This document shows, piece by piece, positions 1,336 through 31,916 of a DNA stretch of 31,916 nucleotides. The position numbers and the translations under genes were made by a program. This DNA comes from a virus: the IMG/VR virus record IMGVR_UViG_3300049043_000015, positions 1-31,916 of that record, one strand, 5' to 3'. The notes below the pieces were generated by a model, which saw only the letters and a list, made by a program, of their open reading frames with translations, did no database searches and had not been told where the DNA came from. Numbering within the stretch: the stretch's first letter is position 1; each line of letters begins with the position of its first letter.

Positions 1336-1567
1336 TTCGTGCCCTTCTTCAGAATCTGCCGCCGCCCCTCTCGCGTCATGCTCAGCATTTGCAGCCGGTC
1401 ATAGTCTAGGTCCAGATCATGTCGCAGACCCAGCGCATCGACCCGATCGCCTTGCTGATCGGAGTAGATCCACTCCTTTGCTCGGCGCTGCGTATCCAAT
1501 GCGGTTGAGTCGAATCGCTTGGTCACACGACCGCGGCCCACAACGCCCGATATGACTGATCGTTCAC
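1332..1567 (-). CDS. Small conserved-type phage protein, frameshifted
   Basis: I cannot name a function. The GTG at 1567 overlaps the TGA of the preceding gene (GTGA). The first frame reads VNDQSYRALWAAVV, then stops. Reading continues in other frames as QAIRLNRIGY, then KEWIYSDQQGDRVDALGL, and ends MTREGRRQILKKGTK. The pattern of ALWAAV, then QAIR, then WIYSD followed by a short basic tail resembles small phage proteins of 80-100 residues found among early genes. At least two one-base shifts are needed. The downstream Dcm start overlaps its stop. The reconstructed start is preferred over the ATG-like start at 1541 because it joins the gene to its neighbour. Confidence 0.55.
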
Positions 1568-1857
1568 CAGTTCGCCGTCTGTCTGGCTAGGTCGATTGCT
1601 TTACATAGTTCCTCGATGATGGGTTTGATGGTCTTTCGCAGCCGGTACAGTTCTCGCTTTTGCTCCCGCCTGCGATCTCGTAACTTCTCGGCGTGCTGCC
1701 AGTAATACTCGCGCTGGTATTCCGTCCGCTTGTTGCCGAGTCTTACAGCCTCCGAGGCCGCGCGCTGGGCTTCTGGCGTGAGGGATTGGTGGAGGTGGTA
1801 GTTGTGCGGCTTCCCCCCGACCGACTCTGTTCCGCAAATTGGGCAATTACGGCGCAT
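1564..1857 (-). CDS. Small protein with N-terminal zinc-ribbon-like Cys pair and basic helix
   Basis: Intact frame of 97 residues. It begins MRRNCPICGTE, giving one CxxC pair, with two histidines (HNYHLH) shortly after that could complete a metal site. The rest is strongly helical and basic (REYYWQHAEKLRDRRREQKR), a pattern also seen next to HNH-type zinc knuckles, but no HNH motif is visible. A DNA- or RNA-binding role is plausible from charge and Cys spacing only. It starts 11 bases inside the end of the upstream gene, and its stop overlaps the start of the downstream one. Function unknown. Confidence 0.65.
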   Translation of the reverse strand: MRRNCPICGTESVGGKPHNYHLHQSLTPEAQRAASEAVRLGNKRTEYQREYYWQHAEKLRDRRREQKRELYRLRKTIKPIIEELCKAIDLARQTANW

Positions 1858-2259
1858 GACGTGTACACGCCTCCTCGGCTTGCTCGAAGGTTCTGGAACA
1901 AGCCCCAGGCACTTCGGAATGCGCCGTCCGTCCTCGTTGCTGCGTCCAAGCCACGTATAGGCCTTCTGGGCCGTTTTGGTCTTGGCGGATGGCGTAGGCG
2001 CGGCAGGCGCTGACGTGGCCCCAAAATGGATGAGAGAGCCATTGGAGAGGCTGACGGAGGCGTAGGGCGGCTTGGGTCATGGCGCGTCCTCGTCCGTGGC
2101 CCAACTTGGGCAGGGTGCCGACTTGGCCCTCGGCGTCTTGGTAGTGCAGCACCGCGCGCCGAAGGTCTGCTGGAAGGCGAGCATCATGGATAGCGCCTCC
2201 GGCCCTTCGTGACGCAGTAACCGCTCGCCGACCGCCGTGGTCGGGGTAGGCTTCGGCAT
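1847..2259 (-). CDS. Hypothetical phage protein, frameshifted
   Basis: Not recognised. The ATG at 2259 gives MPKPTPTTAVGERLLRHEG followed by a short helical segment (ALSMMLAFQQTFG). A one-base shift near 2145-2155 moves the frame into YQDAEGQVGTLPKLGHGRG, a segment containing SHPFWGHVSACRAY, and a C-terminus ending EQAEEACTRHAP. The joined length is about 137 residues. No transmembrane segment or metal motif is seen. It is the first gene after the ACTGGGG repeat cluster, so it could have its own translation start with only a weak ribosome site. Long versions starting further upstream would run through the repeats and are less likely. Confidence 0.45.
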
Positions 2260-2276
2260 CTTCAATCGCTTCGTTA

Positions 2277-2481
2277 ACTGGGGGAATGTCTCATCGTGTC
2301 TCACTAACTGGGGGAACAACTGGGGAAAAACCTAAACTCGCGTAAGTCATTGATTCTTCGTCCCCCAGTTGATCCCACTATATACAACTGGGGAACTGGG
2401 GAACTGGGGCAACCCCCAGTGTCCCCTCCAAGTTGCCTTCCGACTGGGGGAAAGACTTGGGATAACTGGGGAAACTGGGGG
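2277..2481. repeat. Cluster of eleven ACTGGGG motifs (iteron-like; candidate replication origin)
   Basis: ACTGGGG occurs on the plus strand starting at 2277, 2307, 2319, 2387, 2395, 2403, 2443, 2465 and 2474, and inverted at 2362-2369 and 2413-2420. Three copies (2387-2409) are spaced exactly 8 bases and two (2465, 2474) are spaced 9. These spacings are not multiples of three, so a coding repeat is unlikely. The cluster fills the gap between the primase-helicase gene and the next gene. Position and form suggest a binding array for the replication protein. This is inference; no experimental origin is known to me. Confidence 0.6.
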
Positions 2482-2493
2482 CAATTACGTTGC

Positions 2494-4752
2494 TCAAAAC
2501 GGCACAACCTCATCCTCATCGGCCTTCTTATCGCCAACCTTGAACGCCGAAATATACCGCCCCTTCGCATGATCGCGAGCCGACACTTTGACCAGGCTAC
2601 CCTCGGACACCCACTCATCGAGCACGCGCCGAACCATCGACCGCGCACCCGGCATCGTGAACATCCAAGCTCCATATGCCTCGCCACGATCTGCCCGGCC
2701 CATTGCGCGCTGCGAACATCCGCCCGCACCAACAACGGGTCGCGCTGATACGTCGCGTCTATGTCTGCCAGAATGACCGCCTTTTGACCCGGCGACATCT
2801 GCGCGTCAGTCGGCGGGTTCCACTCATCCACCACGCCCACCTTGTCGCCGTCTGGATACACCGCATCGCCGTTGCCTAAGTCAATGCTGACCAGTTGCCG
2901 CCACAGCCGCTCGTCCGTCGGCGGGTCTCATGTTGGCCTTTGGATTCTGAAGCCAGAAATACCGTCGCCGATCCTTCGCTTCGATACCGTACCGCTCCGC
3001 CTCGGGCTGTCCCATCGGCGAGGCAATCCGCACGCTACGACACGCCCCGAGCAATGCCGACGCACCGCGCACGTCCTCGCTCGACGCCCTCGTTGCCGTT
3101 GCCCTTTCGGAAGTGATGCACGATCTCGACCGCCAGGTTCGCCTGCTCGGCTATCGCGCGCCACTCCCACATCACCTTTTCCATCGCCGGGTTGTTGTTC
3201 TCATTGACCGCGTGCGTCGAAATGAACGGGTCAAGGATCATGGCGTCGATGCCCTCATCTCGAGCGCACTTCACGATCTGCTCACGCACGGCAGGCAGTT
3301 GCATTACCGTGCCATCCGCTTCCTCGGCCACGATGATGCGGGTATCACGGCCAGAGGTGAGGTACAGATTCTGCGCGACCTCCTGCGGGTCTAGGCTGTA
3401 GTGCTTACAGATCGCCACGAGCCTACGCTGCAATTCGTCCAGCGGGTCTTCCCCGTTGTGAATCCAGACCTTGAGCGCCCCGGTCGGCAGTTGCCACTTA
3501 CCGCGCAGTAAGATCGCGTCCAAGCGCCATGCTCACAGCCTCTACCATCGTCATCGACGACTTGCCGCCACCGCCCGCGCCTGCCGTCATCGACACCATG
3601 CGACGCATATAGTGGAAGCCATACAGCCACTGCCGAGGCGGTATGCAATCGGCATCGATAGGCTGCCAGCGCCGCGCGACGATGCTTTCAGCGTTGCGAC
3701 GCTTGCGCCGCTTTGGCCGGTTCGGTGGCCGGTTCCCTTACTGGCTCCATGCCGCGCGCCTCGGGCACGTCCGACCAGTCCGGCTCGCCTTCTTCGCGTG
3801 GTGGTGGGCCCAGCCGCACGGCCTCGGATACGTGGACATAGCCGCCAGCCTTTGCTGCGCTGAACACGCTACCGAACGTCACGCCGCCCGCCCGGTCGAG
3901 GTGGAACGACTGCCATCGGTGCTCGATGTCGGCCGCGCCCTGCGTAGTTGTGCGGCAGCGTGCCAGTCAGTCCGCCGCTTGACCATGCGTCCCAAAGTTC
4001 CAGCCCATCGTCAGCGCCGCCGCTCGCGTGGTGCAGCGCCATGCCGACCATGAGCCATGCGTCGTATCGCTCTGGGTCAATATGCGCCAGCGCATCCGTG
4101 ACGCGCGGCAGATCGCGCTGGAAGTCTTGGCTAGTGCCGAGCCGTGGCGGCAGTTTCGCGGCCACCTCCGACGGCAGTTCCAAATCCATGCGCCGCTCAT
4201 CGATCAGCCCAGCGGGCAGCGTGGCAATGTCAGCCAGCGGGCCGGACTGCCCAAAGTGCAGCGGCCACCAAATGACGTAGCCACCTTCGGCTCGGATATC
4301 CAGCCCACCCCGGCGCACCTTGCCGAGCGTCACGCTCGCGCCGCCTCTGATCTTTACGCCTGCCGGAGTCTGGAATAGGTAATGCCGCCCGCCGCTTCCG
4401 CCGCCCGTTTGGTGCACCCGCGTGGAGGTGAGGATCGACTGATTTTCGGACAGCCAGTCTTGCGCCTGGTCGTCGGCTACCCGCGCGTCGAAGTCGAGCA
4501 CAGCCAGATTAGTGCGCGATCCCGTCGGCACGCCCACGAGCGCGTCGGGTAGTTGCCCCACCATCTACGGATGGTCGCCTCGTCTTGGCTTGCATCCTTA
4601 AACCCGTTGCGGGTCAGAGGGGACTTGGCCTTTTGGATACGCCCTGTGGTGTCCTTCTCATCACGCCGTCGGCATGGGAATACGGGGTAACGCTTGGCGA
4701 GGTCGAGCACCTTTTCGACGGGTACGATTGCTGTGAGTTCGGGTTGTGTCAT
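2494..4752 (-). CDS. Bifunctional primase-polymerase / RepA-type hexameric helicase, frameshifted
   Basis: Main replication protein, about 750 residues when joined. The N-terminal third is a prim-pol domain: KSPLTRNGFKDAS, then LAVLDFDARV with catalytic acidic residues, then HQTGGGSGGRHYLFQ and GLDIRAEGGYVIWWP. A PriCT-like segment follows (YDAWLMVGMALHHASGG). The second half is a RecA/RepA-like ATPase: Walker A GAGGGGKSS near 3565, KVWIHNGEDPLDELQRRL, Walker B DAMILDPFISTH near 3230, and IVHHFRKG. It ends in a small winged-helix-like segment and an acidic tail, DEDEVVPF. Frameshifts lie near 4565, 3880-3930, 3690, 3500, 3070, 2880 and 2700. The ATG at 4752 overlaps the stop of the regulator gene. 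It should synthesise primers and unwind DNA at the phage origin, for which the adjacent repeats are the obvious candidate. Confidence 0.85.
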
Positions 4753-21691: not shown

Positions 21692-24088
21692 TTAGGTCGT
21701 GACGATCTCGTTGCACTCGGCGAACGACTCGGGGTGACGCACCGCGAAGTCGCAGTCGTGGAACGCAACCACGCGAACCGTACCGGCATTGCTGCCCGTG
21801 TACTGGTCAACGAGGATGTCGATACCCGACCACTGGCCGATCAGCAACTCGCTCCACACGCCAAAGATCATCGCCGACAGGTTGCTGCCCGAACCCTTCG
21901 ACAGGTTGGAAGGCATCTGCTGGCTGACGACAATCGGGTAGCCGTAGAGGTTGTTGACATCGGGGCCGAGGATGAAGTTGCCTTCCACGCCCGAAGTCTG
22001 CTTCGAGGTGTTGGACAACTTCGCCTTGACCTGGCCGTTCGTCAAGAACGCCGCCGCGCCCGTGAGCGCGTTGTCGATATCGACTTCGCGAACGAGGTTC
22101 GTCACCATCGCCCACGTCGGCGCACCGCCGTTCGTGCCGAGCGTCACCGAGCCAATGCCCGAGGTGTTCAGCACGCCGGTCGGCTTGTTGCTGCCCGAGC
22201 CAGCCACAGCGGCACCGTCCATCGCCACCGCAATCGAGGTCGCCAGGTCATTGCGGACGAGGTTCTCGATGTCGAGCGACGACTGGAGCATCAAGCGACG
22301 GCTGATGTCCACGTAGGCGCCGAGGGTCTTCGGCGACATCGTGACTTGATCGAACGCCGGAGCATTGGTGCTCTCCGTCGGGGCCACGTTCTCAGCAACC
22401 CAGTAGGCGGCAGAGGCGGCGGTCTTACGCGGAATGGCAACGTTGCCCTGCAAGCCCGTGAGGAACTGCGCGCCGAGGGTGTTCAGCACCATCTTGTTAC
22501 GCAGCACGTCGATGAACGAAGCGGCCAGCAGATCGGTCGCCACGGTGTTGCCAGCCTTGGCAGTGCCCGAAGCAGTCGAGGTCGTCAGATCGCGCTTGTA
22601 CAGCACGTCCACCGGGACGAGCAGACCACGCGAGGTGCGGCCTTCCTTCTTCGCAGCAGCCTCGGAAACCTCAAACTCAAAACGAGCGGCTTCCTGCGCG
22701 GCACGATCCTGCGGGTTCGCAAGAGCGCGAATCGCCTTCACGAACGAGAAAGCGCGAACTTCCTTGTCCGAAAGGCCGACTTCCATATCGACGTTCAGCG
22801 GCTTGGAGGCCACCTTGTCGAGCAGGGCACCACGGAACTGCTCAATCGACGCGCCATCACGAATGGCGGACTCGCCAAACTCGCGCTGGCCGTGACGGCT
22901 GGCAAGGTCAAGAATAGCCGCAACGCGCTCGCGCTCGGCCTTTGCAGCGCCCTCTCGGGCGATATTGATATCTTCCATTTTCGTCTCCTTAACAAAAATT
23001 ACAGGGTCAGCAGCCGGAGCCGGTGCGGGCGATTCCAAAGAACGCCCGACGCCAACGCTGGTATCTGCCGGAATTGAAACAATGCTGATCTCAAGAGGCA
23101 TCCAACGGGTTGCGCGGTAAATCTCCCGATCACCTTGCTTCCCATCCGAAACCATCTCGTTGATGACGTAGCCGACAGACACGTTTGACCGTATCCCGTC
23201 TTTCACGTCTTGGTAGATTTCCTCGGCCCTTGCGCTTTTCCCAAAGCGCACGACTGCCCGCGCCACGCGGTCAGCCCCGAGGTTGATCTGCTCCACGACT
23301 CCGATCTGATCGGACATCTCGTGATCCACCAAAAGCGGCGCGCGGCCGCTTCCGATAAATTCTGTATTGATTGCGCCGGGCGAATGGTCGAGCACTTCCA
23401 TGCCCCAGCCGCGATCCACCGGCATTTCGCTAGAGAACGCGAGTGTCGCGCGGCGGTCATCTGTAACAACGCGCTCGAACACCGCAGAGCGAAACACGCG
23501 ATCGGTTGGCCCCTTGCGTTTGCCCGGCCCAACGTAGTCGGGATCGCCCGGCTCATGGCCGTAGATATCCTTCGGGCGCGCTGCCTCTGCCACAACTTCT
23601 GCGGCTTCTTCGGCGGCTTCCTCGAAAGCCTCGATCTGCTCGTCGGCCTCTTCGCTTTCGTCCATGTCGTACTCCGACTTGGCGAAAGTCACCGTCACTG
23701 TCGCTTCGTCTTCGACGACAGCGATCACATGGCGCTTTTCTATCGTGTCCATATTTCGGCCCTCATCTTCTCGATCCAGTTCTTCGCTCTTGCGATTAGC
23801 CCAGGCTTGGCCGGGGTCTCCACCCCAGAGTGCCCACGCGATACGGCCCGCCGAGGGGTAGCCCTCTTCGCCGGGGCTGAAGCCTTCGGCCTCTTTATCG
23901 ACTTCGTGTCTTGCAAAGTAACTCACCATCCTTCGGACTGTTTTGGGCGAAAGATTCGTCCGATTCTTGATGTCACGCGCTCGGGCCACACCGACGGCTG
24001 TGCCGCCGCGCCCAAACTCTTCACGCCAAGCAAGTCCGCGCTCGGCCTCTGCTGCCATCGCCTCTGTAGGCTGTAAATCGACCGCCAT
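21692..24088 (-). CDS. Prohead protease - major capsid protein fusion
   Basis: 798 residues, intact. Residues 1-110 are a separate region with EEGYPSAGRIAWALWGGDPG. After an acidic coil (about 140-175) the HK97-type protease spans about 195-345, with His256 in LLVDHEMSDQIG, Ser301/Ser304 in GIRSNVSVGYVI, and WMPLEISIVSIPAD. A Pro/Ala linker (351-365) leads to the HK97-fold capsid protein from Met371: a helical scaffold-like part (MEDINIAREGAAKAERERVA), then GRTSRGLLVPVDVLYKRDL, AAYWVAENVAPTES, DISRRLMLQSSLDIENLVRN and VVSQQMPS. It would cut its own scaffold domain and form the capsid shell. An internal ribosome site before Met371 may also give free capsid protein. Confidence 0.9.
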   Translation of the reverse strand: MAVDLQPTEAMAAEAERGLAWREEFGRGGTAVGVARARDIKNRTNLSPKTVRRMVSYFARHEVDKEAEGFSPGEEGYPSAGRIAWALWGGDPGQAWANRKSEELDREDEGRNMDTIEKRHVIAVVEDEATVTVTFAKSEYDMDESEEADEQIEAFEEAAEEAAEVVAEAARPKDIYGHEPGDPDYVGPGKRKGPTDRVFRSAVFERVVTDDRRATLAFSSEMPVDRGWGMEVLDHSPGAINTEFIGSGRAPLLVDHEMSDQIGVVEQINLGADRVARAVVRFGKSARAEEIYQDVKDGIRSNVSVGYVINEMVSDGKQGDREIYRATRWMPLEISIVSIPADTSVGVGRSLESPAPAPAADPVIFVKETKMEDINIAREGAAKAERERVAAILDLASRHGQREFGESAIRDGASIEQFRGALLDKVASKPLNVDMEVGLSDKEVRAFSFVKAIRALANPQDRAAQEAARFEFEVSEAAAKKEGRTSRGLLVPVDVLYKRDLTTSTASGTAKAGNTVATDLLAASFIDVLRNKMVLNTLGAQFLTGLQGNVAIPRKTAASAAYWVAENVAPTESTNAPAFDQVTMSPKTLGAYVDISRRLMLQSSLDIENLVRNDLATSIAVAMDGAAVAGSGSNKPTGVLNTSGIGSVTLGTNGGAPTWAMVTNLVREVDIDNALTGAAAFLTNGQVKAKLSNTSKQTSGVEGNFILGPDVNNLYGYPIVVSQQMPSNLSKGSGSNLSAMIFGVWSELLIGQWSGIDILVDQYTGSNAGTVRVVAFHDCDFAVRHPESFAECNEIVTT
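22976..22990 (-). promoter_or_regulatory. Internal ribosome site and start for free major capsid protein
   Basis: Inside the protease-capsid frame, AAGGAG (22985-22990) lies six bases before an in-frame ATG (22976-22978, Met371). This is a near-ideal Shine-Dalgarno and spacing, and the start falls exactly at the beginning of the capsid part, predicting a 428-residue product. Confidence 0.6.
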
Positions 24089-26409
24089 TATTCCAACCTC
24101 AAGAACGATTCTGCGCTTGTTGTCAAGGTGAGTGCAACTACACGTACCGTGCCGTCGCTGCCCTTCACCTTGATGGTGAGCGTCGAATTGTCCGTGATCT
24201 CAAAAACCATATCGCCATTGCTGGCCGGAGTTGCACTCGCGCTAGGCTGATATGTCACCGCGCCAATGCTGCCGCCCGTAATCGCTACGGCGCTCGCATT
24301 CTGCGTGGACATCGTGCCGAGGCCCGAAACCGCCGTGTTAGCGATTGCAATATTCGTATTCGATGCGGCAGTCAGTCGGCCCTGCGCGTCTACCGTGAAG
24401 GTGCCGACTTGCGAGGCCGAGCCATAAGATGCTGCCGTCACTGTGGTATTGGCGAGCGCAATCGACCGATTCGCAGTCAGATCGCCGCCGCCGCTCAAGC
24501 CAGTGCCAGCCGAAATCGTGATGGTCGATGCCGCAGCGCCAAGGCTTGTCAGTGCAGCCCCGGCCGTCGTCGCACCCGTACCACCGTTAGCGACGGCCAC
24601 CGTGCCGGTTACATTAGCAGCCGTGCCGGTGGTGTTTTGGTTCAGAGTCGGGACGTCTGCCGCCTGTATCGCGGCCATCACGACATTGGTGCCATTGCCT
24701 CGCAGATACTGGCCGCTAGTTACAGCGCCAGCAAACGCATTCATCGCAGCCTGTGCGCTGGTCTGTCCGCTGCCACCGTTCGCAATCGCTACCGTGCCGG
24801 TGACATTAGACGCCGTGCCGGTCGTATTCTGGTTCAAGGTCGGCACGTCACCGGCTTGGATAGCCGACATCACCACATTCGTGCCGTTGCCGCGCAAATA
24901 CTGACCGCTCGTCACGGCACCGGCAAACGTATTCATCGCAGACTGCGCGGAGGTCTGCCCAGTGCCGCCGTTAGCGACAGCAAGGGTTCCGGCTAGGGTA
25001 ATCGTCCCAGCCCCTGTAATCGGGCCTCCGCTCGCTGTAAGGCCGGTCGTGCCTCCGCTGACATCAACGCTTGTGACCGAGCCAACGCCGCCAGCGGGCA
25101 CCCATTCAACATCCGTCCCGCCGACGTTGACTGCGAGCACCTTGCCCGCGTTGCTGGAGTACGACGGCAGAAGGTTAGTCCGCGCGCCAGATGCGCTCGA
25201 TGCGCCCGTTCCGCCGTCAGTCACGGCAAGGTCGGTAATGCCCGAAATGGTGCCGCCTGTGATCGTGCCGCCGCTGATCGAAACGTTGTTGGCATTCTGG
25301 GTTGACATCGTGCCAAGTCCAGAAACCGCTGTGTTCGAAATCGAGATCGCGCTGTTTGCCGCCGCAGTCAGTCGGCCTTGAGCATCGACCGTAAAGGTCG
25401 CAACTGAACTCGAAGAGCCATACGATCCGGCGCTCACCGCAGTATCGGCGAGGCTGATGGTGCCTGTGGCCGTAATCGGCCCGCCAGTTAGTCCTGTGCC
25501 GGTTGCAACACTCGTTACGGTACCAACTTGCGGCGCAGCAATCGTAACAGTGCCCGCGCCGTTCGTAATCGTGATGCCAGCGCCAGCAGTAAGATTGGCA
25601 TTTTTCCAGAGCGAGGTCGATGCGTCATAAATGATTAACTGCCCATTGGCGGGTGAGTTGATCTGTACGTCGTGGATTTCGTCCAGTTCGTACCCGTTTT
25701 GCACCTTGACGTAAATTTGGCCGTTGCCAGCGTTAGCACGCTCGACCACGCCAATATAAACCATGTGATTCGGCGCTTTCGGCTTCGTCGCCGTCAAGGT
25801 TCCAGCACTTGCGCCAAGGTACAGAATGTCGCCCTCGTTGTAAGCGCCTGTATTCAGCCCATCAAGAACGCCCTGACAAACAATAAAACCGGCTTGGTTA
25901 GGGCCGATGCTTTCAGCCGCAAGACCGAATGTCGTTGCAGATGTCGGGTCTTGAAGATTGCTCGCTAACTTAACGCTCGCACGATTCCCGGTCGCTTGGT
26001 AAAGATAGACCGGCTGGCCCTTGTTGATCGTGACCGATTCGGCGCTTTTAACGTATGCGTGTACTGTTTGCCCAATTACAGATATTGCATTTCCGCCAGG
26101 CAGTCCGAGTTGCAAACTTCCGTCGGTTGCATCCCATCGAACTCTGCCAACTGCATTGGCTGGTGTTGCGGTCGTATCAAAGTCGATATAGTCTGGCGTG
26201 GCGATACCGCCAGTCAGCCCGTTCATCGAGGTGATGTCGCTGTTCGCGCCCTTCTTGGCCGCTTCCGGCCAGCCGGTGCGGACGATCACCTCGGTCTCAC
26301 TTTCTTCGATGATGACCGAGTTTAATTGCTCATCAACAACCATGTTCGTTGATGAGTCGTTAACGATCAAATTCTGATTTGTTTCGTTAACGATCAGTCT
26401 CGTACTCAC
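24088..26409 (-). CDS. Fibre-like virion protein with internal repeats
   Basis: 773 residues, intact, GTG start overlapping the upstream stop (GTGA). N-terminal part: LIVNETNQNLIVNDSSTNMV, then VGRVRWDATDGSLQLGLPGG and a beta domain (VTINKGQPVYLYQATGNRAS, GFIVCQGVLDGLNTGAYNEG). From about residue 290 it is low complexity and repetitive (Gly, Thr, Ser, Ala): FTVDAQGRLTAA twice, SGLGTMSTQNA twice, and two 64-residue units beginning GQTSAQ. It ends in a small beta domain (NGDMVFEITDNSTLTIKVKG). Typical of trimeric fibre or head decoration fibres. Its place between portal and capsid genes is unusual for a tail fibre. Confidence 0.75.
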   Translation of the reverse strand: MSTRLIVNETNQNLIVNDSSTNMVVDEQLNSVIIEESETEVIVRTGWPEAAKKGANSDITSMNGLTGGIATPDYIDFDTTATPANAVGRVRWDATDGSLQLGLPGGNAISVIGQTVHAYVKSAESVTINKGQPVYLYQATGNRASVKLASNLQDPTSATTFGLAAESIGPNQAGFIVCQGVLDGLNTGAYNEGDILYLGASAGTLTATKPKAPNHMVYIGVVERANAGNGQIYVKVQNGYELDEIHDVQINSPANGQLIIYDASTSLWKNANLTAGAGITITNGAGTVTIAAPQVGTVTSVATGTGLTGGPITATGTISLADTAVSAGSYGSSSSVATFTVDAQGRLTAAANSAISISNTAVSGLGTMSTQNANNVSISGGTITGGTISGITDLAVTDGGTGASSASGARTNLLPSYSSNAGKVLAVNVGGTDVEWVPAGGVGSVTSVDVSGGTTGLTASGGPITGAGTITLAGTLAVANGGTGQTSAQSAMNTFAGAVTSGQYLRGNGTNVVMSAIQAGDVPTLNQNTTGTASNVTGTVAIANGGSGQTSAQAAMNAFAGAVTSGQYLRGNGTNVVMAAIQAADVPTLNQNTTGTAANVTGTVAVANGGTGATTAGAALTSLGAAASTITISAGTGLSGGGDLTANRSIALANTTVTAASYGSASQVGTFTVDAQGRLTAASNTNIAIANTAVSGLGTMSTQNASAVAITGGSIGAVTYQPSASATPASNGDMVFEITDNSTLTIKVKGSDGTVRVVALTLTTSAESFLRLE
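24577..24960 (-). repeat. Two 192-base tandem coding repeats in the fibre-like gene
   Basis: Units 24769-24960 and 24577-24768, each 64 codons. Both encode GQTSAQ, FAGAVTSGQYLRGNGTNVVM and VPTLNQNTTGTA with few residue changes, but differ at many third codon positions. An old in-frame duplication kept by protein-level selection. Confidence 0.75.
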
Positions 26410-26753
26410 CGAGTAACCTCCGCGTCAACGGTGAAACATCCTTGGATAAGGCGCGTTACCGTTCCGCCGCTAGAGACCACCTCAAGGTCATAGACGTATT
26501 CGCCCGCAGTCACCGCAGCCGTATCGGTCGCAGAGACCAAAAGCGTGATCGTACCCGCAGCGCCGCCAAGTGTAATGCGGCTGTTCTCTGTGGTCAGAGA
26601 TAGCAGCACGGTCGAAGAGTCAGCCGTCGCACGTACTTGCATCCGTGCAGTGTATCCGGTCAGATTCACCGCATTGGCCGATGAATCCTGCCACGTCAGA
26701 ATGCGCGTGAAGGTTGCGCCTTGATCGCAAACGATGTCGTAGTTAGCCGCCAT
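26406..26753 (-). CDS. Small beta-sandwich virion protein (BppU N-terminus-like)
   Basis: 115 residues, intact. It starts MAANYDIVCDQGATFTRILT, then NLTGYTARMQVRATADSSTV, ITLGGAAGTITLLVSATDTA and GEYVYDLEVVSSGGTVTRLI. The order of Gln-Gly-x-x-F, G-Y-x-A-R-M-Q-V-R and Y-x-Y-D-L-E-V is common in small phage proteins with an Ig/BppU-like fold found beside fibre genes. Likely joins a fibre to the head or neck. Overlaps the portal end by 11 bases. Confidence 0.6.
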   Translation of the reverse strand: MAANYDIVCDQGATFTRILTWQDSSANAVNLTGYTARMQVRATADSSTVLLSLTTENSRITLGGAAGTITLLVSATDTAAVTAGEYVYDLEVVSSGGTVTRLIQGCFTVDAEVTR

Positions 26754-28190
26754 TGTTCACCTCGGGCGGAATGGGTGACGTGCCGCCGGGCAATGTCACG
26801 CCAAAACTGGAAATGATCTCTTCCTCTGCTTGACGCTCGCGCATCACGTCCTCGATGTCCAGCCCACGCTCGGCCAGCGCCTGCGTGCGGGTCATCAGTC
26901 CGTTGTTGATGGCGACAATCTGCGCCTCGGCCTCATTGCGCGGGTCTACCCACTGCCAGCCGCGCGGCACCCACTGGGTCGCGCTGAACTTGACAAACTT
27001 ACTTGCGGGAAGATTGACCACGCCAGCGTCGAGCGTCTGCCGCAGCCAGCGCAGATACACTGGCTGGCAGAAGTGCTCAATCACCCAATTCTGCACCATG
27101 CGCCAGTGATCGCGCTCTTCGAGCAAGCCCTGTCGAATGCTTGAGTACGAAACCGCCTCAAGATCGTTAGCCAGTGACGTATACGACACGCCGAGGCCCG
27201 ATGCGATACCGCGCAGCATTGCCTTCTCGAAGTCTCTGAAAAGCCGTGCTCGGGTGCTGCGGGTCATAAGACTTGAAATCGACACCGGCTGGCAACTGCG
27301 CGAACTGTCCAGGCTGCACGTCCATCGACAGCGAGCCGTCGGGGTTGTTGCCATCGCCTTGGTACTCATCGCCGCTTTCGCTGACGAAAAAGCCCATCTT
27401 GCTGGCCGAGATACGCGCGGCGACTAGTTCCGCCTCCTCGTACCCGCCCAGCATCTTGAGGCGCGTCATCGCCGTCGCAGTCCACCGGTGAGCCGCGATT
27501 CTGACCGATACGATCCGGCCGGAATGCGTGAATCATTCGGTCAGCCGGTATACGCTCGGTGCGCGGGTTCGTGCTGCCGATCTGGTAGTCATCGGGCGGA
27601 CGCACGCGAACGTGGTAAGCAATCGGTCTGCCCGAAGCGTCCACCTCGATGCCCATCCGAATCTGTCCGCCGTTGGCGAGAATCTCGTTCTTGTCTTGGT
27701 CGATCAGATCTGGGTCAATGAACTGCAATCGGAATCGGAATGGGTTTGCGTTGTCCTCAACAAATAGCACAAAGCATTCGCCATCGCGCGCGACCGATTC
27801 GATAAACACGCGCTGCGCGTCAATCCACGACAGCCGACCATCGACCGTGCAGACGCCCGGCTGGCCCCATGCGTAGAACGCTGCCTCGAGTTGCTGGTTA
27901 GCAATCTGATCCAGCGAGCCGGTTAACTCCCGCGCACGCACTTGCAGCGTGATCCCCTTCGGCCCGACTACGTTAGTCGAGACTAGGTTCAGATACCGCC
28001 GCGCGTAGTCGTTATTCTGGCAAAGGTCGCGCGACCGCGCGCGCATCGCTCGCAGAGCGTAGCGCAGATCGCTGTCGGCGGTCTTTGTTTGAGTCATCCA
28101 GTCGCTAAACAATCGGCCGGTGTTAGCGGCCTCGAATCCTCGCTTGCGAGAGGGCTTTGGCGTGCGCTTGAAGATATCCAATATGCTCAT
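26743..28190 (-). CDS. Portal protein, lambda gpB type, frameshifted
   Basis: About 482 residues. Forms the ring at the capsid vertex for DNA entry and exit. The ATG at 28190 overlaps the upstream stop. It starts MSILDIFKRTPKPSRKRGFE and shows DNDYARRYLNL-like NNDYARRYLNLVSTNVVGPK, then RLSWIDAQRVFIESVARDGE, LQFIDPDLIDQDKNE and DRMIHAFRPDRIGQNRG. One extra base near 27489 and one in a T run near 27235 break it. Restored parts read PWTATAMTRLKMLGGYEEAE, FFVSESGDEYQGDG and AMLRGIASGLGVSYTSLAND. It ends LPGGTSPIPPEVNNGG. Length and motif order match the Phage_portal_2 family. Confidence 0.9.
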
Positions 28191-30251: not shown

Positions 30252-31916
30252 CTATCTCCATCCGTTTACCCACCCACCTGGGCGGGGTCTTAAATTCGGT
30301 CGCGTCGATCTCTGCTGTATCTGCGGCTGCACTTGCGGGCGATTCTCGATCACCCTCGGCGCTGCCGCCTCTACTTTTCGATTCGGCAAAATCATCGGGC
30401 CACCACGGCCGATATACGCCGCGTAAGCGTACACCATGCAATCTAGTGCCTCGGTGCGTGCGCCCGCTGCGCGCGGCTTGTATGACCTCACGCGACGGCC
30501 CTGCACCATCCTGTAAATCAATGTCTCGGCGGTCAACTGGTCAAAGTAGACCTCATCGACCGATGCGGGAAAATGAATGTATCCCGCACCCGGCTCGGCG
30601 ACACGCTTTAGCCTTCCGAATAGAACGTCTTTCGCCGTGTCTACGCCGACAATAAAAACCTGCGCCGAGGTTTTACCCGCCTTGCCTGCGTGCTTCGGCC
30701 AGATCAACCGGCCGAACCCGCCCGCTCCCTTGATTGCCCACACGCGCCGCGACTTTCGCTTGGCTGCGTATCCGTAGACCTGTTGTGTAAAGTGTCCGCC
30801 CGAGTCAATCGCGCACGCTTCGATCAGCATCGGCGCGCCGTCTTCTCTTGATCGTGCGCGCTCTCAGGAATGCGTCGTGATCTTTCCACAGATCGTCCGA
30901 GCCGGGATCACCGCGCAAGATCGCGTGCTCTACTAGCCACGCTTCCTCATCTCGCCCCCACGCCCACACGCTGCACTCAAGCCGGTCGTCCTGCACGTCC
31001 GTGCCGACAGTTAGCATCAACGCGCCAGCAGGAATCGTCTGCGATCCGTACTGCTCGCGCCTTGCTGCTAACCCTATAGCCTCGACTTGCTCGCCCTTTT
31101 CCTCGAATGTCTCACCGAGCGCCGTGTTGATCCACGTTTGCAGCGTTTCGGGAAATCGTTTGGCCGCGACAAATGCTACGGCCATTTCCGACCATGTAGA
31201 CCAAGGCGAGTACAACTCCGAAATATGAAACGATGCAATCCCGCGAAACTCTTTCGTGCCGCGCCACTCGCCCTCGCGCAGCATCTGCGTCTTGTCTGCT
31301 TCGGTCAGCAGTACGCCGCACGCGACGCACGCATATTGCGCCGCTTCCGGCTGACCCTCCGGCCATCGTACCTGTGCCCACACGAGCCGCTGCGATTCTC
31401 CGCAATGCGGGCAGGGCACAAAGTAAAACCGCTGATCGCCCGACTCGAAACCAGCCTCGATGCGGCTTGATCCCTTAATGGTCGGCGTCGATCCTGCCAG
31501 CACCTTTCGATTCCAGAATGTCGCCGTGCGCTTTCGCCCCAGCGAAATCGGGTCGCCCTCGGTGCCCGCGCTCGCTGGGTATCTGTCCACCTCGTCAAAG
31601 AGCACCACGCGAATCGGACGTGATGCCAATCCGCTCGGGCTGTTGGCACCGGCCACCGTCAGATGCCCGCCTGCGAATTTTTTATGCAGTAGCGTGTTGC
31701 CCGTGTCGCGCGACTTCGGATCGGCTATGCGCTCGGTCAGCACAGCCGTGTCGCGCACCATCGGTGCAAGTCTGTCTTTGCTCCAACTCTCCGCCATCTC
31801 AAGCGTCGGCTGCACGAGCAGCATCGGCGCTGGGTCTTGATGGACGTGGTAGCCGATTACGTTGTTGAGGACTTCCGTCCATCCGACCTGGGCGGACTTC
31901 ATCACCCAGACTTCCT
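30252..31916 (-). CDS. Terminase large subunit, GpA family, partial at N-terminus, frameshifted
   Basis: Packages DNA into the prohead; the window edge removes its N-terminus. The visible part opens EVWVMKSAQVGWTE, the GpA-type Walker A, then IRVVLFDEVDRYPA (Walker B with D-E). A zinc pair CPHCG and CVACG sits in between, and the nuclease part has LTVGTDVQDDRLECSVWAWG. Near 30840 one base must be added so that RARTIKR continues EDGAPMLIEACAIDSGG, the usual GpA C-terminal part. It ends PRPGGWVNGWR. It is followed closely by a fibre-like gene, not by gpW directly. Confidence 0.92.

Follow-up and report, generated by a model that had tools for sequence, protein, structure and literature searches.

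The protease-capsid fusion gene at positions 21,692 to 24,088 (minus strand) of the viral DNA analyzed here (31,916 nucleotides, hereafter the window) contains an in-frame start at codon 371 that is very likely functional; judged from the sequence, this is by far the best reading of the site. We propose that the gene is read both as a fusion and as a separate delta-capsid chain, which would co-assemble, with the fusion as the minority that delivers the protease, and we put the probability of this reading at roughly 0.84.

The original prediction placed protease and capsid in one frame, and the 798-codon frame indeed carries both a Peptidase_S78 match (residues 246–343; 23,060–23,353; all coordinates of this gene and its parts refer to the minus strand) and a Phage_capsid match, the latter in an HK97-fold domain (residues 513–790; 21,719–22,552). 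With an S78 protease at the N-terminal side, a delta segment, and an HK97-type capsid at the C-terminal side of one frame, the protein is an S78-type fusion. It matches phrog_617 over residues 202–794 (E = 5e-152) and is related to NF045541 (scaf_prot_MCP2) as a non-member, scoring 154.7 bits against a curated cut-off of 525. His256 and Ser304 of the protease are invariant in alignments of 16 and of 50 sequences and are candidate catalytic residues, a role taken from HK97. The protease is preceded by an N-terminal domain (residues 4–109; 23,762–24,079) that belongs to phrog_2859; a PDB sequence search with this 112-residue region gave no significant match. A helical domain of this type (about 110 residues, phrog_2859, with the motif GRIAWALWGGDPG) precedes the protease in some members only. 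The primary start (ATG, 24,088–24,086) has an SD-like GAGG 8 nt upstream (24,097–24,100), with a duplex energy of −6.3 kcal/mol.

An AlphaFold2 model of the 798-residue protein, built with 50 sequences, has a mean pLDDT of 77.7 and comprises four modules (a well-folded N-terminal helical unit, the protease, a helical delta segment, and the HK97 fold) that are split by disordered stretches at residues ~112–145, 342–373, and 499–522. In a Foldseek search with this model, the C-terminal part was identified as an HK97 fold, the best match being the capsid of phage R4C (8gta), followed by gene-transfer-agent and HK97 heads. The linker that contains the internal start (residues 342–373; 22,970–23,065) has pLDDT values below 50 and is weakly conserved in the alignment. 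Met371 lies at its end, three residues ahead of the first delta helix, which begins at residue 374; delta, named by analogy with HK97, comprises the helices of residues 374–482 (22,643–22,969). Since disorder in the model extends to residue 373 and the helix begins at 374, Met371 would thus be a natural start for a delta-capsid chain resembling HK97 gp5.

Two other features of the window touch on its head genes. Between the portal gene and the capsid gene, an unusual location, lies a gene for a fiber-like protein of 773 residues that contains numerous G/T/A-rich repeats (AVANGGTGATTAG-like; 24,088–26,409) and has no PHROG match. The portal (26,743–28,190) and large terminase (30,252–31,905) genes each appear as two overlapping frames, which suggests either frameshift errors in the assembly or recent decay.

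At the site itself, AAGGAG (22,990–22,985) is followed by a 6-nt spacer, ACGAAA, and by an ATG (22,978–22,976) in frame at codon 371; this agrees with the spacing and position originally described, to which we add that the site is on the minus strand. Counting both strands, the window contains only seven copies of the hexamer, three of which have a start codon 5 to 9 nt downstream. By duplex energy, that is, pairing with the anti-SD at the 3' end of 16S rRNA, the codon-371 start, at −9.2 kcal/mol, comes first among all internal ATG, GTG, and TTG codons of the gene (runner-up −6.8), and in this gene the internal SD is stronger than the primary one. A synonymous-codon test on the window gene alone gave p = 0.135, such single-gene tests being weak. 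The nested gene (21,692–22,978), delineated by the start site, the domain matches, and the model, would encode an HK97 gp5-like product of 428 residues.

Whether related fusions keep the site had been named beforehand as the test of the idea; this was assessed at two levels of relatedness, with an outcome strongly in its favor. In a close set of 80 IMG/VR loci, whose best segments are 72–99% identical, the single frame is kept throughout, and nearly all loci that reach the region keep the site, mostly as AAGGAG and also as CAGGAG, ATGGAG, or GAAGGT. The Met371 codon is conserved as well, and the site shows residue changes (VKETK, TQEST, KETPK) as well as short insertions in the spacer from SD to ATG. 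Among 23 dereplicated close relatives, the lysine codon of the SD is AAG in 16/16 cases and the glutamate codon GAG in 19/19, compared with a gene-wide GAG share of 53%. In a ranking by excess synonymous conservation, this Lys–Glu codon pair comes 15th of 674.

The distant set was obtained by profile search and consisted of 80 prophage loci, found in genomes from many phyla, and 78 further viral loci, together with 17 annotated phage fusions of the S78 type; an NF045541 search across 114 genomes gained little. The fusion occupies a single frame in 245/245 loci with a recognizable protease-end motif, and a search for split protease and capsid versions among these 245 relatives found none. Eight loci without the motif stand outside this count, including the phages phi39:1 and phiPsal1, which are known to be split. 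For statistics we used 104 representatives with less than 70% identity and looked for an ATG 8 to 68 codons past the VGxGR motif. Such a linker ATG is present in 103 of the 104, and 80 of these 103 have a perfect SD tetramer 4 to 10 nt upstream, compared with 54 of 1237 control in-frame ATGs (Fisher, nominal p = 1e-70). These counts, like the spacing plot, take the linker ATG with the best SD in each representative; when all linker ATGs are counted, the figures are 82/145 versus 54/1237.

The best SD energy in the linker has a median of −6.05, compared with −2.4 in 743 stretches of the same size from the same genes, at a nominal p = 4e-37; because the representatives are related by ancestry, this and the other p-values overstate independence. 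Within-gene synonymous permutation, which preserves both protein and codon usage, gave a null summed energy of −481.6 ± 22, and the observed sum of −675.9 was reached in 0 of 200 permutations. Gene by gene, 12/103 genes have p ≤ 0.05, so that the strength of this test sits in the aggregate. The distances between SD and ATG form one peak, at 7 nt, and all fall within 4–12 nt, whereas controls are flat near 1%. The mRNA around the linker ATG is open (median MFE −6.9 versus −16.1). The residue after the linker Met is S, P, A, or T in 60% of cases versus 23% of controls, which resembles the residues found after real start codons. A chance match was considered and is ruled out by the linker SD energies, the codon permutation, the tetramer and spacing counts, and the open mRNA.

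Although the linker between protease and delta is poorly conserved as protein, the ATG is retained. The SD tetramer begins in codon frames 0, 1, and 2 in 14, 41, and 25 cases, respectively, and after clustering at 40% identity the ATG is present in 13/13 clusters and the tetramer in 12/13. These changes of codon frame and the clustered counts argue against mere inheritance. In one representative, the linker ATG has no SD and a GTG with AAGGAG ahead of it stands at the usual place. The SD is not universal: the cyanophages S-CBS1, S-CBS3, and S-LBS1 have a linker ATG without SD, which makes sense because SD-independent initiation is common in cyanobacteria.

The ATG was predicted to stand exactly at the start of the capsid part and to give free capsid protein. 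It does stand at a domain joint, and a conserved site for a protease-less product is encoded, but what starts at this joint is delta, the shell domain beginning only near residue 512; the free product would therefore comprise both delta and capsid, a complete HK97-gp5-like precursor rather than the mature capsid. A relative with a solved capsid is R4C, which has 38% identity and the same gene plan, with CGGAGGACGCA-ATG at codon 189. The chain modeled from the R4C virion (8gta) corresponds to residues 362–629 of a 629-residue fusion, about the last 270 residues. Its first residue aligns with residue ~512 of the window protein (22,553–22,555), about 140 residues after Met371. This position lies in the disordered stretch between delta and the HK97 fold, a putative cleavage region, and we take it as roughly where the mature shell chain begins; since the deposited chain is the part that is ordered in the shell, the cleavage position is approximate. 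As the shell model of mature R4C contains neither protease nor delta, neither a 428-residue band nor a peptide starting at Met371 is expected in mature virions. By analogy with R4C, finding only full-length-derived products in virions, an outcome that the original prediction regarded as contrary, would leave the internal start standing.

In the mechanism that we envisage, ribosomes would start both at the primary ATG, yielding the full fusion, and at codon 371, yielding the delta-capsid chain, and the two chains would co-assemble through the delta-capsid part that they share. The full-length chains, as a minority, would bring the protease inside the prohead; cutting near residue 512, it would remove delta and itself and leave the mature shell subunits. 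The excess of the short form that this entails is an assumption: in 21 annotated phage genes, the internal SDs (median −6.0) and the primary SDs (median −5.7) are alike (p = 0.78), and a large excess of the short form is therefore not implied by SD strength. The available space was estimated for a T=7 prohead with 415 subunits, the number of capsid copies reported for the R4C head (PMC10276861). If all subunits were full-length fusions, the non-shell protein would amount to ~28,000 nm3, or roughly 50–85% of an interior of 33,000–58,000 nm3 that follows from an assumed radius of 20–24 nm; with residues 371–511 alone, the corresponding volume is ~7,800 nm3. This estimate supports a need for the short form but does not prove it.

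Three other explanations of the conserved site were weighed. The gene could make the full fusion only, the protease being freed by self-cleavage during or after assembly, and the ATG and its SD could be the fossil of a former gene boundary. The related phages phi39:1 and phiPsal1 do have separate protease and capsid genes, so that the fusion may have come from the loss of a stop codon; the composite gene of Gifsy-2 reportedly gave particles by itself; and the fact that R4C virions hold the C-terminal part only is explained equally well by self-cleavage alone. A fossil would decay, however, and in members as distant as ~36–40% identity the ATG persists, as mostly does the SD, in differing codon frames, and synonymous codons at the site are constrained. 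Proheads built from the fusion alone would also be crowded according to the volume estimate. We therefore consider this explanation unlikely.

A conserved protein motif, such as a Lys/Glu-rich protease site or a helix cap with a resemblance to an SD as a by-product, is still harder to maintain, and we regard it as very improbable. V-K-E-T-K-M is fairly constant among the close relatives of the window gene, and KE and EE codons are purine-rich, but across the representatives the residues vary (KET, QRS, IRGAE, EEERI), and the SD persists in all three codon frames. Moreover, its distance to the ATG is fixed, the Met itself is retained, and the signal is lost when codons are permuted with the protein unchanged. 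The third explanation accepts the internal start and gives it mainly a role in timing, or a separate role for the delta-capsid chain such as shell initiation with the portal, in place of stoichiometry. In its favor, internal SDs do not on average exceed the primary ones in strength. Heads generally require fewer proteases than capsids, as in HK97 with roughly 50–60 proteases per 415 capsids, and this requirement, together with the volume estimate, favors stoichiometry; a main use in timing or a separate role thus seems to us a minor prospect. The reading as a minority fusion plus a free delta-capsid chain remains our preferred one.

The gene probably contains another internal start, at codon 113, for which fewer sequences are available and which is less certain than that at codon 371. 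Here, a GAGG (23,761–23,764) precedes an ATG (23,752–23,750) where the N-terminal domain meets the protease module, and nearly all close relatives keep both. In distant members the protease module begins with "M...RHI", at codons 113 to 406, and 9/10 representatives with such a start have an ATG, most with a GAGG upstream (median −6.0). The putative product of protease, delta, and capsid (21,692–23,752) would have 686 residues, the usual size of fusions without the N-terminal domain (Persinger, ep3).

The layout of the window gene resembles that of the lambda C/Nu3 pair, in which the head protease gene has an in-frame internal start from which an assembly protein without the protease is made (NC_001416 annotation). 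The window gene, too, has an in-frame start with an SD downstream of the protease domain, which could work in the same way; the annotated Nu3 start inside C, used as positive control, has an SD score of −6.9, weaker than the −9.2 of the window. Lambda Nu3 is scaffold only, with the capsid protein E encoded by a separate gene, whereas the nested product of the window is scaffold plus capsid, and the lambda C protease is S49/ClpP-like whereas that of the window is S78, which places the window gene outside the C/Nu3 family. The module order and protein families are those of HK97 gp4 and gp5, and the 428-residue product corresponds to gp5. In HK97, however, protease gp4 and delta-capsid gp5 are two genes, in contrast to the one frame with internal start of the window.

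Protease-capsid fusions as such have been named before (phrog_617; NF045541; phage MD8, PMC8508860; Arthrobacter AM/AU/AN and RRH1, PMC5513430). Protease, scaffold, and capsid are joined in the tripartite capsid gene of Gifsy-2, as Effantin 2010 is cited in PMC8814770, and in gp5 of Pseudomonas phage MD8/F10 (PMC8508860); these have a ClpP-like protease, unlike the S78 protease of the window. Nearly all of 12 representatives of the ClpP-type F10/MD8 fusions have AGGAG or GAGGA followed by ATG-P(E/N/K) at the protease/scaffold joint, and the F10/MD8 group shows a conserved AGGAG..ATGPEALK after the protease. Small actinophage fusions (RRH1, Gordonia, and Arthrobacter phages) have an SD and ATG at the protease/delta joint in six of seven cases: RRH1, Rahul, Jeanie, BlueFeather, KylieMac, and Adaia carry AGGA, AGGAG, or AAGGA there, and SallySpecial does not. 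The S78, ClpP-type, and actinophage fusions may have arisen independently. With somewhat better than even odds, in our view, a fusion is tolerated only with a start at the joint, of which each of these three groups keeps one; the window clade would then have three modules with starts at codons 113 and 371, a stop-less operon giving chains of 798, 686, and 428 residues.

The phrog_617/S78-type fusions of R4C, VP882, ep3, Persinger, and PPpW-3 and the actinophage "major capsid and protease fusion" have the same architecture, to which the window gene adds its N-terminal domain, and each is entered as a single capsid gene. Neither the 17 phage records of the S78 type nor the actinophage fusion records examined have an annotation for a capsid gene nested at the linker. 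Annotation varies in another respect in Roseobacter phage CRP-823, whose fusion gene (1486–4414) is entered as two overlapping "major capsid proteins"; the corresponding gene of CRP-831 is one 974-residue frame. The MD8 paper (PMC8508860) mentions no internal start, ribosome site, or stoichiometry, the Arthrobacter paper (PMC5513430) no internal start, and the R4C structure paper (PMC10276861) no protease. A literature search for an internal start in protease-capsid fusions, with few subscription papers in its scope, found none. Hence, the nested capsid start in such fusions appears to be unreported, although priority is not certain, and it is kin to the nested-gene principle of lambda C/Nu3.

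A fusion of protease and capsid creates the problem of one protease per shell subunit, to which a conserved nested start is, in principle, a solution. The phages concerned form a large group with proteobacterial, cyanobacterial, and other hosts, and their predicted shell precursor is without annotation in the database entries examined. The nested start therefore bears on how fusion genes are annotated and on how they are cloned for structural work.
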